Shown: piece by piece, positions 57,434 through 64,000 of the stretch | Numbering within the stretch: the first letter of the stretch is position 1 | Layout: every line of letters begins with the position of its first letter | Assembly (NCBI GenBank): GCA_020847855.1 | Contig: JADLBH010000037.1 | Coordinates: 124,001 to 188,000 of the forward strand | DNA: 64,000 bases | Source of the DNA: Fimbriimonadaceae bacterium | GTDB lineage: Bacteria; Armatimonadota; Fimbriimonadia; Fimbriimonadales; Fimbriimonadaceae | Direction: 5' to 3' | Program-made: the position numbers and the translations under genes | The notes under the pieces: generated by a model | Told to the model about the DNA's origin: nothing | Database searches by the model: none | What the model saw: the letters and a program-made list of their open reading frames with translations, nothing else

Positions 57434-58444
57434 ATGCCAGTCAAGGTAGGGATCAACGGGTTTGGGCGGATCGGGCGGCTCGCGCTGCGGGCGATGATCG
57501 AGCGCTCGCGGGAGAGCATCGAGGTCGTGGCGCTCAACGACCTCACCGACGTGGCGACGAACGCCCATCTCTTCCGCTGGGACACGGTCTACGGGCCCTA
57601 CCACGGCGAGGTCCGGCACGACGACGACTCGATCCAGGTGGCGGGCTACGACATCAAGGTCTTCAAGCAGACCGAGCCGAAGGCGATTGACTGGGCGAGC
57701 GTGGGGGCCGAGCTGGTCATCGAGTCCACCGGAAGGTTCACCGACGCGAACCTGGCCAAGGACCACCTGGGCGGCACGGTGAAGAAGGTGATGATCAGCG
57801 CACCGGCCAAGAACGAGGATGTAACCATTTGCTTGGGCGTGAACGAGGGGATGTACGACCCGCGGTCCCACCATGTGGTGAGCAACGCGAGCTGCACCAC
57901 GAACGGCCTCGCCCCGGTGGCGAAGGTGCTGCACGAGTCGTTCGGGATCCAGAAAGGGCTGCTCACCACCGTCCACGCCTACACGAACAGCCAGAGCGTG
58001 GTGGACACGGCCAAGAAGGACCTGCGGGACTCGAGGGCTGCCGCCGAGAACGTTATTCCCAGCAGCACCGGGGCGGCCAAAGCGGTCGGTCTCGTGATCC
58101 CCGAGCTGAAGGGGAAGTTCACCGGCATGGCGTTCCGGGTGCCGGTGCCCACGGTGAGCGTGGTGGACTTCACGGCGCACCTGGCCCGCGAGGCCTCGGT
58201 CGAAGAGGTGAACGCGGCGATGAAGGCGGCGGCGGAGGGCCCGATGAAGGGCATCCTCGCGTATACCGAAGAGGAACTCGTCAGCAGCGACCTGCGCGGC
58301 AACCCGAACAGCTCGGTCTTCAGCGCGGTGGACACGGTGGCGCTGGGCGACATGGCGAAGTGCGTGGCCTGGTACGACAACGAGTGGGGCTACAGCTGCC
58401 GCATCGCCGACATGTGCGGGTTCATGGCGCAGAAAGGGATGTAG
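57434..58444 (+). CDS. gap: Glyceraldehyde-3-phosphate dehydrogenase, type I
   Basis: 336 residues. NAD-binding INGFGRIGRLALRA, catalytic Cys in SNASCTTNGLAP and C-terminal [16 protein letters not shown]. Glycolysis and gluconeogenesis. It stands without pgk or tpi. A 154 bp copy of its 3' end lies at 63315. Confidence 0.97.
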   Translation: MPVKVGINGFGRIGRLALRAMIERSRESIEVVALNDLTDVATNAHLFRWDTVYGPYHGEVRHDDDSIQVAGYDIKVFKQTEPKAIDWASVGAELVIESTGRFTDANLAKDHLGGTVKKVMISAPAKNEDVTICLGVNEGMYDPRSHHVVSNASCTTNGLAPVAKVLHESFGIQKGLLTTVHAYTNSQSVVDTAKKDLRDSRAAAENVIPSSTGAAKAVGLVIPELKGKFTGMAFRVPVPTVSVVDFTAHLAREASVEEVNAAMKAAAEGPMKGILAYTEEELVSSDLRGNPNSSVFSAVDTVALGDMAKCVAWYDNEWGYSCRIADMCGFMAQKGM

Positions 58445-58519: not shown

Positions 58520-58525
58520 TATGCT
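58520..58525 (+). promoter_or_regulatory. -10 element of repeat locus 1
   Basis: TATGCT, 9 bases before the ATG at 58535. The same spacing occurs at locus 2, which supports the ATG in front of the repeats as the translation start. Confidence 0.4.
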
Positions 58526-58534
58526 CTCATCGAG

Positions 58535-59648
58535 ATGAGCCTCAAGCCTCAAGCCTCAAGCCTCAAGCCTCAAGCGGCTAGCCGCCGCCTTACTCGTGGC
58601 TAGCGCGTGGGCCTCAGCGCCCTTCGCGGCACTGTCTCAAACATCAAGCTGGATCCATCGGCACGACGACTCTGTCCATGCCTTTGTGCTACCAAGTTGG
58701 ACGCAGTTGGAAAGTGTCAGCCTAACCAATGCAGGTCGGCGCTTGAAGTTCACGTTGACGTTCGCCAGCGACTTGCCTGCGACAATTCCGGGGGACATGT
58801 GCATCGAGGTCTTCTACGGCGGCAAGAGCATCGTTGCCCCTCTGGGTGACTACACGTATAGCTCCTCTCCTCCGACTTCTGCCGGTCAAGCCGCAACGAT
58901 CCAGCCTGGTGGCGCGTGGACGCAGCTTGCGACAGGCACCGCAGTCCGAGGTGGAAACTCCATCGTTATCGATGTGCCGACGTTCCCCGTGCTATCTGGC
59001 GACGAGCCGTTCGTCGAAGTCCAGTACTTACCACCGGGTGCAAGGCCGAACGCACTGAATCGGCTCTCAGGTTCGGTAGCCAGTTCGATGTTCTTCTTCC
59101 CGACATCAGCTACGACTTCTATCTGGACGTATGGCCACCCGTGGAGCAACGGGGACGCTCCGCAAGACGACCCTGACTATCCGTGGATACCTGGGACGAA
59201 CGACACGCCCCACTGCCCTCCCGATCCGAATGACAACGTTACACACGATCCGGAGATTGGGCCCGACGACGAACCAGGTTACAAGTACAACGACGTGGAC
59301 ACTCCATACATGGGTGACACAGGCGGCAACCGGGTTGCCCTGTTTGGGATTGACGACTGCTTCCGTATCGGATACGGGCACGATGACAATGGCAACGGGA
59401 AGTAGGATCCTGGCGAGGTTGACCATTGGATCAGCAAGTGCGGGTTCACCAGAGGCCAGAACAAAGCCGGTTGGGATGAAATAGATGGCAAGTACTATTG
59501 GCGTCACGTAAACATGAAATGGCCCGCTCCACCGCGGGATTGGTACACATACATATACGACCCTGTCACGAACAAGCTGAAGGTGTATAGTCCGATCTCT
59601 GGGCTCATCTACATCGGACCTCCAGAAGGCTTTTGGGGGTGGGATTAG
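58535..59648 (+). pseudogene. Phase-variable secreted protein gene, locus 1 (off, plus amber)
   Basis: Begins ATGA, then five GCCTCAA repeats, then the signal-peptide core RLAAALLVASAWASA in a different frame. With 4, 7 or 10 repeats the ATG reads into the gene; with 5 it ends after 22 codons. The remaining open part (58596-59405, GTG start) encodes a beta-rich secreted protein ending GHDDNGNGK, then TAG at 59403. The frame continues (DPGEVDHWISKCGF ... LKVYSPISGLIYIG) to TAG 59646, aligning with locus 2 (NGKLDGSEV ... GKLKVYDENG), so the amber replaces a Leu codon. No family recognised. Confidence 0.65.
58539..58573 (+). repeat. Heptanucleotide tandem repeat, 5 copies
   Basis: Five perfect GCCTCAA units right after ATGA at 58535. 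Seven is not a multiple of three, so each change in number shifts the frame of the signal peptide. Confidence 0.95.
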
Positions 59649-59650
59649 GC

Positions 59651-60298
59651 ATGTTGACGGCTCTTCTCGCGCTACAAGCAACGTCGGTTGCCACCCAGCG
59701 AGTTTGGGTGCGAGAGTTTAAGGCTGACGGATGGACTTCTCCCTTCACGGTCAAGGAGGGCGAGGGGGCAGGAGTGGTGGCGGTACCCACCCCCAAGTGG
59801 ACCAACCGCTGCATCTTGCGGGTGACCTCGTTGGGGGATACGCTCAAGGTCCAGCTCGATTTCCCGCTCGCTGGCAGGCCAGCCAAGGGTGAGCAGATCG
59901 TCTTCGGAATGTTCAACGAAGAACAGGATTTCCGGCTCAAACAGTACAAGATCGTCGTATTCAACTGGTCTGGGACAGACCTGCCCACGACTCCAGTGGT
60001 CTGCGTGGGAGAGGCGGCGCTCCTGGTCCCTGGGCCCGCGTCCGAAGCCCGCAGAACAGGGGAAAACCTCGCGGTCTCGATCACGAAGCCGACGTTGGCC
60101 GGAACGAGCGTCAGCTGGACGCTACGCCACAAGAGCCTCGTCGGCTACAAGCCGTACTTCGCCGAGCTCTACTGGCTGCCGAAGGGGCGGACTCACGGTC
60201 CCAACGTGCTCAGCCATACGGCCGCCTTGTTCGATTTCGAAGACCGCGAGGGTAGCGTCTTCCACTTCTTCCCACAACTCTGGCCCTCGAAGGGGTAG
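59651..60298 (+). CDS. Exported protein, unknown function
   Basis: 215 residues from ATG 59651, 2 bases after the end of the locus 1 gene. MLTALLALQATSVATQRVWV is a short signal peptide, followed by strand-rich sequence (LRVTSLGDTLKVQLDFPLAG, SVSWTLRHKSLVGYKPYF). Probably the partner of the phase-variable gene, as the two arrangements repeat at locus 2. No family recognised. Confidence 0.6.
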   Translation: MLTALLALQATSVATQRVWVREFKADGWTSPFTVKEGEGAGVVAVPTPKWTNRCILRVTSLGDTLKVQLDFPLAGRPAKGEQIVFGMFNEEQDFRLKQYKIVVFNWSGTDLPTTPVVCVGEAALLVPGPASEARRTGENLAVSITKPTLAGTSVSWTLRHKSLVGYKPYFAELYWLPKGRTHGPNVLSHTAALFDFEDREGSVFHFFPQLWPSKG

Positions 60299-60355: not shown

Positions 60356-61414
60356 ATGTTCCGAGTGACCACGGTCGTCCCAGCCGTTCTGCTTGCCTCC
60401 TTAGCCCTCGCCCAAGCCCCAGGGTGGGAGGCGAAGGCCGACGATGCGGCTAAGCCTTGGGACCGCAAGGACAGTCCGGGCGGGGTGGTCGGCGTGGCGG
60501 TGGACGGCAAGCTGGTCTATGCCAAAGGTTTCGGCCTCGCCAACCTCGAGCACAGCGACCCGCTCTCGCCCGAGAGCGTGATGGACGTCGGCAGCGTCGC
60601 CAAGCAGTTCACCGCGATGTGCGTCTTGCTGCTCGAGGAAGAAGGCAAGCTCAAGACCAGCGACGACGTGCGCACCTATGTCCCCGAGGTCGCTACCGCG
60701 GGCCAGACGGTCACGCTCGACCATTTGCTCCACATGACCAGCGGCCTGCGCGACTACTTCACCATCTGGGGGCTCGAAGGCTGGAACGGGGTGGACGAGC
60801 GCACCGAGGCGGACGCGCTGGCGACGCTCGCCAAGCAGCAAGGCCTCAACTACGCTCCCGGCTCGCGCTTCCTCTACTCGAACTCGAACTATGTCGTCTT
60901 GGGGACGGTCGTGCGGCGGGTCTCGGGCAAGCCGCTCGCCGAGTTTGCCAAGGAGCACATCTTCGGCCATCTGGGGATGGATTCGACCCAGTTCGACGTA
61001 CCGGGATTGGTCAAGCCGCGACGGGCCACAAGCTATGGCCGCGGCCCGGGCGGGGCATGGGTCATGCTGTCTAGCGCGCTCGATACCAGCGGCGACGGCG
61101 GCATCGTCACCACGCTCGGCGACCTAGCCAAGTGGCATGCCAACCTTTTGGTGAACAAGCTCGGCAAGGGCGACGCGGCCCTGGTGGGGAAGCTCGTGAC
61201 GCCGGCGGTCCCCGAAGGCTCGCCGACCAAGTATGCCTGCGGAATCGTGGCGAGCGAGCTGCGCGGGGAGCGGCGGCTTGGCCACAACGGAAACTGGCTC
61301 GGGTTCAATGCGGCGACGCTCCTGTTCCCGGGCAAGAAGCTGTCTGTGTTCGCGCTGGGCGACGACTCTGCGGCCGTCCGCAGGCGCAGACGATGGGACT
61401 TGATGGTACAATGA
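60356..61414 (+). CDS. Serine hydrolase of the beta-lactamase/penicillin-binding (class C) family
   Basis: 352 residues with a signal peptide (VVPAVLLASLALAQA). The nucleophile Ser80 lies in SVAK, the second motif is YSN (LYSNSNYVVLG) and the third site is HNGNW in place of KTG, typical of the broad esterase/DD-peptidase-like group. A substrate cannot be assigned. The C-terminal RRRRRWDLMVQ is unusual, and the -10 element of the next gene lies inside it. Confidence 0.85.
   Translation: MFRVTTVVPAVLLASLALAQAPGWEAKADDAAKPWDRKDSPGGVVGVAVDGKLVYAKGFGLANLEHSDPLSPESVMDVGSVAKQFTAMCVLLLEEEGKLKTSDDVRTYVPEVATAGQTVTLDHLLHMTSGLRDYFTIWGLEGWNGVDERTEADALATLAKQQGLNYAPGSRFLYSNSNYVVLGTVVRRVSGKPLAEFAKEHIFGHLGMDSTQFDVPGLVKPRRATSYGRGPGGAWVMLSSALDTSGDGGIVTTLGDLAKWHANLLVNKLGKGDAALVGKLVTPAVPEGSPTKYACGIVASELRGERRLGHNGNWLGFNAATLLFPGKKLSVFALGDDSAAVRRRRRWDLMVQ
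61407..61412 (+). promoter_or_regulatory. -10 element of repeat locus 2
   Basis: TACAAT, 9 bases before the ATG at 61422; GAGGG in the gap could act as a ribosome binding site. Confidence 0.5.
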
Positions 61415-61425
61415 GGGTGAGATGA

Positions 61426-61481
61426 GCCTCAAGCCTCAAGCCTCAAGCCTCAAGCCTCAAGCCTCAAGCCTCAAGCCTCAA
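61426..61481 (+). repeat. Heptanucleotide tandem repeat, 8 copies
   Basis: Eight perfect GCCTCAA units after ATGA at 61422, the same unit and context as locus 1. The sequence following the repeats (CGGCTAGCGGC...GTGGCTAGCGC) is also shared. Confidence 0.95.
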
Positions 61482-61497
61482 GCGGCTAGCGGCAGTC

Positions 61498-62589
61498 GTG
61501 ATCGTGGCTAGCGCCCTTTCCTCTCGCCCGCTTGCATCGTGCGCGCAGACCGTGCCCGCCTTCGACCCGCTCGCCGAGACGGTGTTCCACGTTCCGTACC
61601 CGGAATTCACGCACTTCACGTCCGCCTCGGCGGCGTTCGCGGGCAAGACGCGCACGGTCACGATGCAAATGGCGGCAGACGTCGCCGCGCCGGCGGGGTC
61701 AGCCGGTCTATGGAAGGCTTACTTCAACGACGGAACGATCCTCGTCTACTGCCACGGCGCCGCTGAAATCCCGAACATCCCGATCGCGCCGGGCCAGGTG
61801 AAGTTGCTTCGAGGATCGGATCTCCAGCCGCTTGCTACGGGCTCGGCGACAGTCTCAGGCTCGACCGTGACGCTCACCGTCACCACCCTCCAGCTCGCCC
61901 CCGGCGGCCCAGTCCCGGCCGGAGGCATAGGGCTGGAGTGGTGCGAGACCAAATACCTGGATGCGGCGACGATCTCCCTGAAGGGCATGGCCGCGCTCGA
62001 CCTGGTTCCAGGCAGCTACTTCTGGCTAGCTGCTGCGCCAGCATCCTGGTTTTCACTATCCCTGATTACGGAGCAACCTGGGGACGTGCCGAGTCAGAAT
62101 TGGAAACGGTTCAGAGCAGAACCTCGATTGCGGACCGGGCCCGGAGTCGTGAGCCTTCCGAAACCAACGGACATTACTGGAGACGGACGGACGGATTGGG
62201 ACTCGGACTCCGACACGCACGTAGAAGGGGACACATACGTTGACGGTTGGATTAGCGACGCCGATTCGGGTGGATGGTTTGGCGACTGCATCATCATCGT
62301 GATCGGTCACGACACGAACCAGAATGGGAAACTAGACGGAAGCGAAGTCACGGACATCATCGGGAAATGCATCTACGACCCGGGCGCCAATAGTGCTAAG
62401 ATCTTCCCGATTCCCGACGGGTCTGTAATCCATCATTGGAACTGGGAGGACTCAAATCGTGACGGGGATCGCGATCCCGGCGAGCGTGCTCGGCACTACA
62501 TCTACAACACGAAGACGGGCAAGCTCAAAGTGTACGATGAGAACGGCAACCTGTTGTTCTTCGGGGATCCAGATGACTATGGTTGGTAG
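61498..62589 (+). CDS. Phase-variable secreted protein, locus 2
   Basis: The open frame gives 363 residues from a GTG at 61498, but the probable true start is ATG 61422, before eight GCCTCAA repeats. With 7 or 10 repeats the ATG reads through to the signal core RLAAVVIVASALS; with 8 it stops after 26 codons. The secreted part is beta-rich; the C-terminal region has Asp-rich repeats (DTNQNGKLDGSEV, DSNRDGDRDPGERA) that resemble calcium-binding loops, then KLKVYDENGNLLFFGDPDD. It shares these features with locus 1. Function unknown; a surface protein is likely. Confidence 0.65.
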   Translation: MIVASALSSRPLASCAQTVPAFDPLAETVFHVPYPEFTHFTSASAAFAGKTRTVTMQMAADVAAPAGSAGLWKAYFNDGTILVYCHGAAEIPNIPIAPGQVKLLRGSDLQPLATGSATVSGSTVTLTVTTLQLAPGGPVPAGGIGLEWCETKYLDAATISLKGMAALDLVPGSYFWLAAAPASWFSLSLITEQPGDVPSQNWKRFRAEPRLRTGPGVVSLPKPTDITGDGRTDWDSDSDTHVEGDTYVDGWISDADSGGWFGDCIIIVIGHDTNQNGKLDGSEVTDIIGKCIYDPGANSAKIFPIPDGSVIHHWNWEDSNRDGDRDPGERARHYIYNTKTGKLKVYDENGNLLFFGDPDDYGW

Positions 62590-63238
62590 CGGCTACGCCT
62601 CTCTCTTACTGATTGGCTGCGGATGCGCCGTATCTCGCCAGACGCTTAGTGATGCAGTCCAGCTCGAGCAGGCCGACACTCGACCCATGGTGCGTCGAGA
62701 TGGAAGCCGCGGAAACGTCGCAGTCCCCGGATGGGCCGCACTGGATCGCGCAGAGGTCAGCTCCCGCGGAACCCTTACGCTCAGCTTTCGAAGCCCCGCA
62801 CCTGCTCAGGGCCAAGGCTCCGGCTGGGCCGAAGTCTTCCTCGGCGACGTTGACAGAACGGGGAAGTGGACTCGCGAACCTACTTGCGCTGTTTACTTGC
62901 ACCTCAGTGGCCGGCCAGAGGACTCGCGAATGGCCGCGTTTACGAAACCGGGAGACGCGTTCGTTTGGAACCTAGCAGGGAAACTGAGGCGCGCTCCGGT
63001 GCGCAGTTCAGGCTCTGACTACGTCCTCGATCTCTCGCGGGCCGAAGTTCGCTCTGCAAAGATTTGCGCTGCCTCCTCACACTGGTACCCCGACCTAGGG
63101 AAACAATGGCGGGAGCCACGCGACTGGCAAACTGCCGTGGCGCGATTTGAGAGACCCCACGAAGCGCGAATGTGGTTCGAGCTGAGCTTTGCGGGTCTGG
63201 CAGGAGATTTGATGAAGGAACTCAAGCGACACGAGTAG
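62579..63238 (+). CDS. Putative lipoprotein, unknown function
   Basis: 219 residues from ATG 62579, overlapping the locus 2 gene by 11 bases. MVGSGYASLLLIGCGCAVSR has a plausible lipobox (LIGC). The remainder is strand-rich (GTLTLSFRSPAPAQGQGSGW, CAVYLHLSGRPEDSR). It occupies the same place after locus 2 as the 59651 gene after locus 1. No family recognised. Confidence 0.6.
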   Translation: MVGSGYASLLLIGCGCAVSRQTLSDAVQLEQADTRPMVRRDGSRGNVAVPGWAALDRAEVSSRGTLTLSFRSPAPAQGQGSGWAEVFLGDVDRTGKWTREPTCAVYLHLSGRPEDSRMAAFTKPGDAFVWNLAGKLRRAPVRSSGSDYVLDLSRAEVRSAKICAASSHWYPDLGKQWREPRDWQTAVARFERPHEARMWFELSFAGLAGDLMKELKRHE

Positions 63239-63297: not shown

Positions 63298-63468
<171 letters not shown>

Positions 63469-64000
63469 GGCTTGCCGCCCGCATCCCGAGGGCCGGGCGT
63501 GTCGCGGCCTGCTACTTTTCGCCTTCGAACTCGTAAGCCAGAGCCTTGCCCAGCAACGGATGTCTGGAGCGAGCATCACGCTCGGCGTTGACGAACCGGC
63601 TTTCCGCTCGCTGGAGCAAGAGCTCAGGATTGTCCTGGGCGAAGAGAGATGAACCGCGAACCCTTGCTTTTCGTAGAGTTCTGACGTATACTTAGGGTCC
63701 TGAGTACCATGCTTCGGGCTTCTTGCGCTCTGCTCCGCGCTAGCGTCCGCGCACCAGCTATCCCGATGGCCTGAGGTCGGCATCGTGCAAAAGAACTTCA
63801 CAGGGAACCTCAGCCTCACGGATCGCTACTACCGTAGCGTTCCCGCCCATCGTCAAGTACCCAGCGATCGAGTACCCGGCGTCCCCGCCGATCCTGGGCG
63901 TCGCCTACCGGCGGGGCCTGAACGTCGTAGTAACGGTCACTTGAGGAACGACAACCCATTCCGGCTCGTGGGGACGATGACCTTGAACTGGGCCAAGCTC
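63469..64000. other. Degenerate end of the window
   Basis: No intact gene. On minus, 63512-63690 reads as a possible gene tail (FAQDNPELLLQRAESRFVNA, ending EFEGEK). On plus, an ATG at 63709 with TATACT at 63687 is one base out of frame with a signal-peptide-like stretch (LLALCSALASAHQL), then NFTGNLSLTDRYYR, and later a different frame reads PPILGVAYRRGLNVVVTVT. So a frameshifted secreted-protein gene probably starts here and may run past the edge. Confidence 0.4.

Follow-up and report, generated by a model that had tools for sequence, protein, structure and literature searches.

We conclude that a set of exported proteins in an uncultured Fimbriimonadaceae bacterium is very probably governed by multi-locus, slipped-strand phase variation at the N-termini of the proteins, working like the opa genes of Neisseria. 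Two of the switches lie in the window, by which we mean the whole 64,000-nucleotide stretch of DNA that was analyzed (G000:C37:124001-188000), and both would be part of a genome-wide set of about 20 switches with different units. In the mechanism we propose, transcription would begin a few bases 5′ of an ATG, the ribosome would initiate at this array-proximal ATG and translate through the repeat array and, as the unit in the window is seven bases long, gain or loss of one unit would shift the reading frame. With 1, 4, 7, or 10 units the product would be a complete Sec-type signal peptide followed by the exported protein, whereas any other number would yield a short peptide, some 10-36 residues long. 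At both window loci the consensus state is OFF. The B genes, which adjoin or overlap the switched A genes, probably co-switch by translational coupling. From the sequence we infer both slippage in the living population and export of the products, and the selective benefit would most likely be escape from phage or predators, or variability in surface interactions. The features of the two loci are as follows:

58520..58525, + strand: -10-like element TATGCT, 9 bases 5′ of the A1 ATG, a putative short-leader or leaderless start (from the sequence and the genome-wide TANNNT enrichment)
58535..58537, + strand: A1 start codon, ATG (switch locus 1)
58539..58573, + strand: five perfect GCCTCAA units, 2 mod 3, so that ATG and signal peptide are in different frames (OFF)
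58575..59402, + strand: A1 body, signal-peptide core RLAAALLVASAWASA and secreted protein, open until the TAG at 59403 (from the A2 paralogue)
59403..59648, + strand: in-frame TAG of A1 (59403-59405), then 80 open codons with a conserved C-terminus; natural stop at 59646
59651..60298, + strand: gene B1, a small exported protein, its ATG 2 bases 3′ of the natural A1 stop
60356..61414, + strand: exported serine hydrolase between the two switch loci (Pfam Beta-lactamase PF00144, E = 4.5e-62)
61407..61412, + strand: -10-like element TACAAT, 9 bases 5′ of the A2 ATG, the same spacing as at locus 1
61422..61424, + strand: A2 start codon, ATG (switch locus 2)
61426..61481, + strand: eight perfect GCCTCAA units, 2 mod 3 (OFF); ON at 7 or 10 units
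61483..62589, + strand: A2 body, signal-peptide core RLAAVVIVASALSS and an intact secreted protein carrying motifs of the D-x-N-x-N-G type
62573..63238, + strand: gene B2, exported, its start overlapping the end of A2; homologue of an A-overlapping gene in the relative G072

The layout that the earlier note had described for locus 1 (TATGCT, a 9-base spacer, ATG plus A, five GCCTCAA units and an out-of-frame signal-peptide core) was borne out to the base, as was its 22-codon dead end, since the ATG as assembled opens a 22-residue peptide terminated by TAG. Tandem Repeats Finder (TRF) gave 5.4 copies with a 100% match for this array. Frame arithmetic likewise agreed with the claim that 4, 7, or 10 units restore the frame, although one unit works too, and when the frame was computed for each unit number both window loci were ON at 1, 4, 7, and 10 units alone. 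The in-frame product of locus 1 is MSLKP...KRLAAALLVASAWASA, and a single unit yields the compact MSLKRLAAALLVASAWASA; this one-unit form is plausibly the ancestral state. A second locus, implied by the title of that note, does exist: eight units follow the ATG at 61422, 2.9 kb downstream of the first array. A1 and A2 are distant paralogues (29% identity over 1-368), and their DNA is more alike right after the arrays (29 of 40 bases) than over the whole 100-base stretch (55 of 100). Locus 1 is the weaker and locus 2 the cleaner switch of the two, because A1 is also broken by a second lesion that the earlier note lacked, the in-frame TAG at 59403-59405, the 80 codons beyond which end like the A2 protein. 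At both loci A adjoins or overlaps B; G072 shows a four-base A-B overlap, and the overlapping gene there matches B2 with 25% identity over 180 aa (E = 1.6e-10).

The 3′-terminal ~164 bases of the GAPDH gene (57434-58444) are duplicated 3′ of B2 at 63315-63477 with 93% identity, and part of this repeat occurs again 2.5 kb on (C37:189998-190075; L033:1998-2075), with 77% identity to the first repeat. The A1-B1-hydrolase-A2-B2 block thus sits between GAPDH 3′-end copies, resembling an insertion hot spot. From 63704 onwards, shortly 3′ of a TATACT, there is a signal-peptide gene that is homologous to the body of another repeat locus (C17:69289) and has an apparent frameshift near its 5′ end.

Could such arrays have arisen by chance? 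Doubled GCCTCAA occurs 11 times in the window, always inside the two arrays, compared with no occurrence in 100 shuffles, and it is found nowhere else in the 2.53-Mb genome; nor did 5 Mb of simulated order-3 Markov sequence contain any array of period 6-12 with at least three copies. Both window loci show what is expected of contingency loci: a longer-than-chance, non-triplet tandem repeat lies within the 5′ coding region, a change in unit number shifts the open reading frame into or out of frame, and the gene is predicted to encode a surface or exported protein with a hydrophobic signal-peptide core. Here and below, signal peptides were assigned by inspection and hydropathy, and gene calls are crude.

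The strongest support for the switch comes from the remainder of the genome (2.53 Mb in 41 contigs, 97% complete), for which perfect repeats were listed over 2.52 Mb. The earlier note had proposed a slipped-strand ON/OFF switch acting on the signal peptide, and this gains support from about 20 other non-triplet repeats placed at the same site in the same genome, and from homologues in other genera that have the like. Long non-triplet arrays are scarce in this genome and the majority are at gene starts, with about 20 start-site repeat loci, two of them in the window, carrying different units in genes for exported proteins. The uncurated list has 28 long non-triplet repeats, of which 14 are at most 45 bases 3′ of a TANNNT-ATG start (random expectation 2.8%, p = 4e-15) and 10 are in addition 5′ of a hydrophobic core (0.28% expected at random, p = 4e-19); none of 15 triplet-type repeats passed the same ATG-proximity test. 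This test is conservative, because it misses clear cases, the TGGCG genes among them, that have no TANNNT at the required distance. The units found at gene starts include the heptamers GCCTCAA, CTGCGGC, ACGGCTC, CTCGCGG, and CATGGGC, the unit TCGGCGCA (two loci, plus two carrying the same unit in another phase), TGGCG (three loci), TCAGG, GCGGT, ACAG, and G12/G13 tracts.

If a genome with at least 10 simple sequence repeat (SSR) loci at its gene starts counts as having a multi-locus phasome, this one does: 18 such loci have an assignable ATG, and there are further probable ones. Three of the 18 are ON and 15 OFF in the assembly, which is consistent with one third being ON (P = 0.10). A change of one or two units restores the frame in the 18 loci, and most then have a recognizable signal peptide, such as MAPALLGASAHRRIVAFIVASFVCLPANAQ or MSLKPQASSLKRLAAALLVASAWASA. 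Unit number also varies between paralogues: two TGGCG genes with 64% identity have 5.8 (OFF) and 6.8 (ON) units, and the two GCCTCAA genes have five and eight. Loss of mismatch repair was considered as a cause and set aside, as MutL is present in the genome. At one further site (C38:95433; L061:15433-17661) a short, repeat-led remnant of an exported gene is continued in frame by a full GroEL (Cpn60) sequence.

How far does this arrangement extend beyond one genome? Named matches in a homologue scan were metagenome-assembled genomes (MAGs), including ‘Fimbriimonadaceae bacterium ACE_ARM1’, and UBA relatives. They agree with genomes assigned to the same family, and on the strength of these relatives the bacterium is taken to belong to Armatimonadota, Fimbriimonadaceae; the free-living lifestyle that the earlier note presumed stays presumptive. 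Among homologues of the switched family F1, that of G053 has TCGGT x6.8 directly after the ATG (out of frame in the assembly), that of UBA2362 has a C15 tract, also after its ATG, and that of UBA6659 has a G9 tract between the -35 and -10 boxes. In G072, which has the closest A homologue (50% identity), this gene begins in the ordinary way and no repeats are present; the GCCTCAA pattern gave two chance-like matches only in 100 relatives (L012, L013), and a search for related loci with A2 as query found none. Given the different repeats in homologues from other genera and their absence from the G072 gene, the placing of repeats at start sites is a habit found across the family, whereas the individual arrays are apparently young. 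Poly-G counts across relatives were left out as evidence, many of these tracts being at contig ends. No Pfam family above cut-off was found for A1, A2, F1, or F3, and fold predictions were poor (pLDDT 58 for A2 and 62 for F1), with partial, low-scoring beta-sandwich matches alone in Foldseek. Family F1 (C27:39830 and homologues in several genera) has invariant His184, His190, Cys242, and Asp90 despite its lack of a Pfam match, and may be an exported enzyme.

The majority of loci that are out of frame invites another explanation, that these are decaying pseudogenes whose repeats expanded without counter-selection once the genes were dead. We consider this improbable, although it is the alternative that survives best. 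Some switch loci are decaying, because starts have been lost or stops are present: the ATG of C15:99762 has become AAG, C17:69289 and C19:13422 have stops in the signal peptide, and A1 has the TAG at 59403. That 15 of 18 loci are OFF is also a counterpoint to phase variation, as it is above what would be expected if most products were usually needed. Decay, however, would not put at least 10 different units at one spot after the ATG, nor would it explain why the same placement recurs in homologues of other genera. Moreover, the bodies 3′ of the arrays are open over hundreds of codons in most loci, A2 is intact except for its array, and three loci are in frame. Two OFF paralogues, C18:26470 and C27:46051, differ at 28, 22, and 51% of first, second, and third codon positions, respectively, and this divergence, rich in third positions, is a sign of selection on the protein. 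The broken loci fit relaxed selection on contingency genes. Breakage of A-type genes is also seen elsewhere, as in G029, where the A homologue is split over two frames (L016/L024).

Might the proteins instead be produced constitutively, from a downstream start or by frameshifting, with the array being irrelevant? An ORF caller would indeed pick GTG 58596 at locus 1 and GTG 61498 at locus 2. Yet both of these codons are inside the hydrophobic core, so that the product would be without a signal peptide, and no Shine-Dalgarno-like stretch precedes GTG 58596. As for frameshifting, the correction needed is +1 at some loci and +2 at others, which excludes a single programmed or common rule. This explanation is accordingly very improbable, and initiation at the array-proximal ATG, with unit number setting the frame, is the reading we retain.

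Assignment of the ATGs at the switch loci is supported by the presence of a start-adjacent promoter pattern. Over a set of 1405 gene starts, called crudely, TANNNT is most frequent 6 bases 5′ of the ATG (94 compared with a background of ~10) and has a shoulder at 7-12 bases, a pattern expected of mRNAs with no leader or almost none. So strong an enrichment suggests that many mRNAs of this Fimbriimonadaceae bacterium are leaderless. The arrangement TTGACA-17-TANNNT-7-ATG is found at C37:227536, C37:230229, and C18:26470. Could the repeats then act through transcription or mRNA structure rather than through the reading frame? A minority of tracts do lie 5′ of the start. Two exported-protein genes (C20:30820 and C20:32701; L150) have (AG)12 beside possible -10 elements, TAACCT and CATACT, each 6 bases 5′ of the ATG, and these tracts are possible promoter-spacer switches. 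On C10 (112557-112618; L088), (ATGCGCTA)7.75 separates a TTGACA from the beginning of a signal-peptide gene, and each unit holds an ATG that reaches a TAA two codons on. Among relatives, an exported-protein gene of G011 (L231) has C16 separating TTGACA from TATAAT, and G039 (L191) a G9 tract between TTGACA and TAGGGT, with the ATG 6-7 bases 3′ of the -10 box in each; these homopolymers would act as promoter-spacer switches. In both window loci and most others, though, the array is 3′ of the ATG and beyond the promoter, making a transcriptional mode for the set as a whole even less probable than a downstream start. Least probable of all, to the point of being negligible, is that unit numbers are artefacts of a metagenome assembly: there are 41 contigs, and contig-end poly-G in some relatives looks technical, but arrays of 35-62 bases are shorter than an ordinary read and lie within long contigs, and their units are many and concentrated at gene starts.

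If the loci are phase-variable switches, what were the events that distributed them over different genes? C27:39830 and C27:46051 have 47 of 60 upstream bases and a CATCGGCG array in common, yet they encode different protein families, whereas C27:46051 and its paralogue C18:26470 are 67% identical but have unrelated starts and different units. Similarly, C15:57699 (L091) and C15:99762 (L093) share a G12 tract whose flanks agree in 59 of 60 bases on the 5′ side and 20 of 20 on the 3′ side, while their bodies are 34-38% identical. For these few pairs the simplest reading would be recombination of 5′ modules, together with repeats that arose anew. We think it somewhat likelier than its converse that this is a modular multi-locus system in an environmental phylum, in which a promoter-ATG-repeat-signal-peptide module has been swapped among unrelated families and has re-arisen with different units. 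If so, a large phasome can evolve without pathogenesis. There is also a practical consequence: as the consensus frame is OFF, automatic annotation overlooks these exported proteins or gives them the wrong start.

Multi-gene repeat switching has been described mostly in pathogens, and our literature search found no paper joining Armatimonadetes and phase variation. In Neisseria opa, CTCTT pentamers lie in the region encoding the leader peptide and their number sets the frame (PMC3960869). The loci described here are similar in having a short non-triplet repeat in the 5′ signal-peptide coding region, with frame set by unit number, and several paralogues each with its own array. They differ in that opa uses a single unit, whereas here there are many, of 1, 4, 5, 7, and 8 bases (GCCTCAA, TGGCG, TCGGCGCA, and others, none of them CTCTT), in several protein families, behind putative short-leader or leaderless promoters, and in a member of the Armatimonadota rather than a host-restricted pathogen; an opacity-type outer-membrane domain was not found by Pfam in A1, A2, or two other switched families. 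Promoter-spacer homopolymers switch porA, opc, and fetA in Neisseria, and the G9 (G039) and C16 (G011) tracts between -35 and -10 boxes are like these, but that mode is a minority here and the window loci would be translational. The heptamers of Haemophilus hmw are located in the promoter and alter expression level, unlike those here, which are in the coding region and would alter the frame. Haemophilus influenzae nevertheless offers a close parallel in its multi-locus SSR contingency loci (PMC2651432) and in the heptanucleotide repeats of hmw1A (PMC8262952), as both organisms have multi-locus SSR switches on surface or exported functions and heptanucleotide units. The heptamer repeats of Xanthomonas and Nostoc share the 7-base unit and an organism that is not a human pathogen, but they are G-rich, mostly intergenic and unlinked to gene class (PMC4692102), whereas those here are intragenic and at signal peptides. 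The mechanism, consequently, is already known, and what is new is the organism, the scale, the mixture of units, the several protein families per genome, the putative start-adjacent promoters and the proposed exchange of modules.
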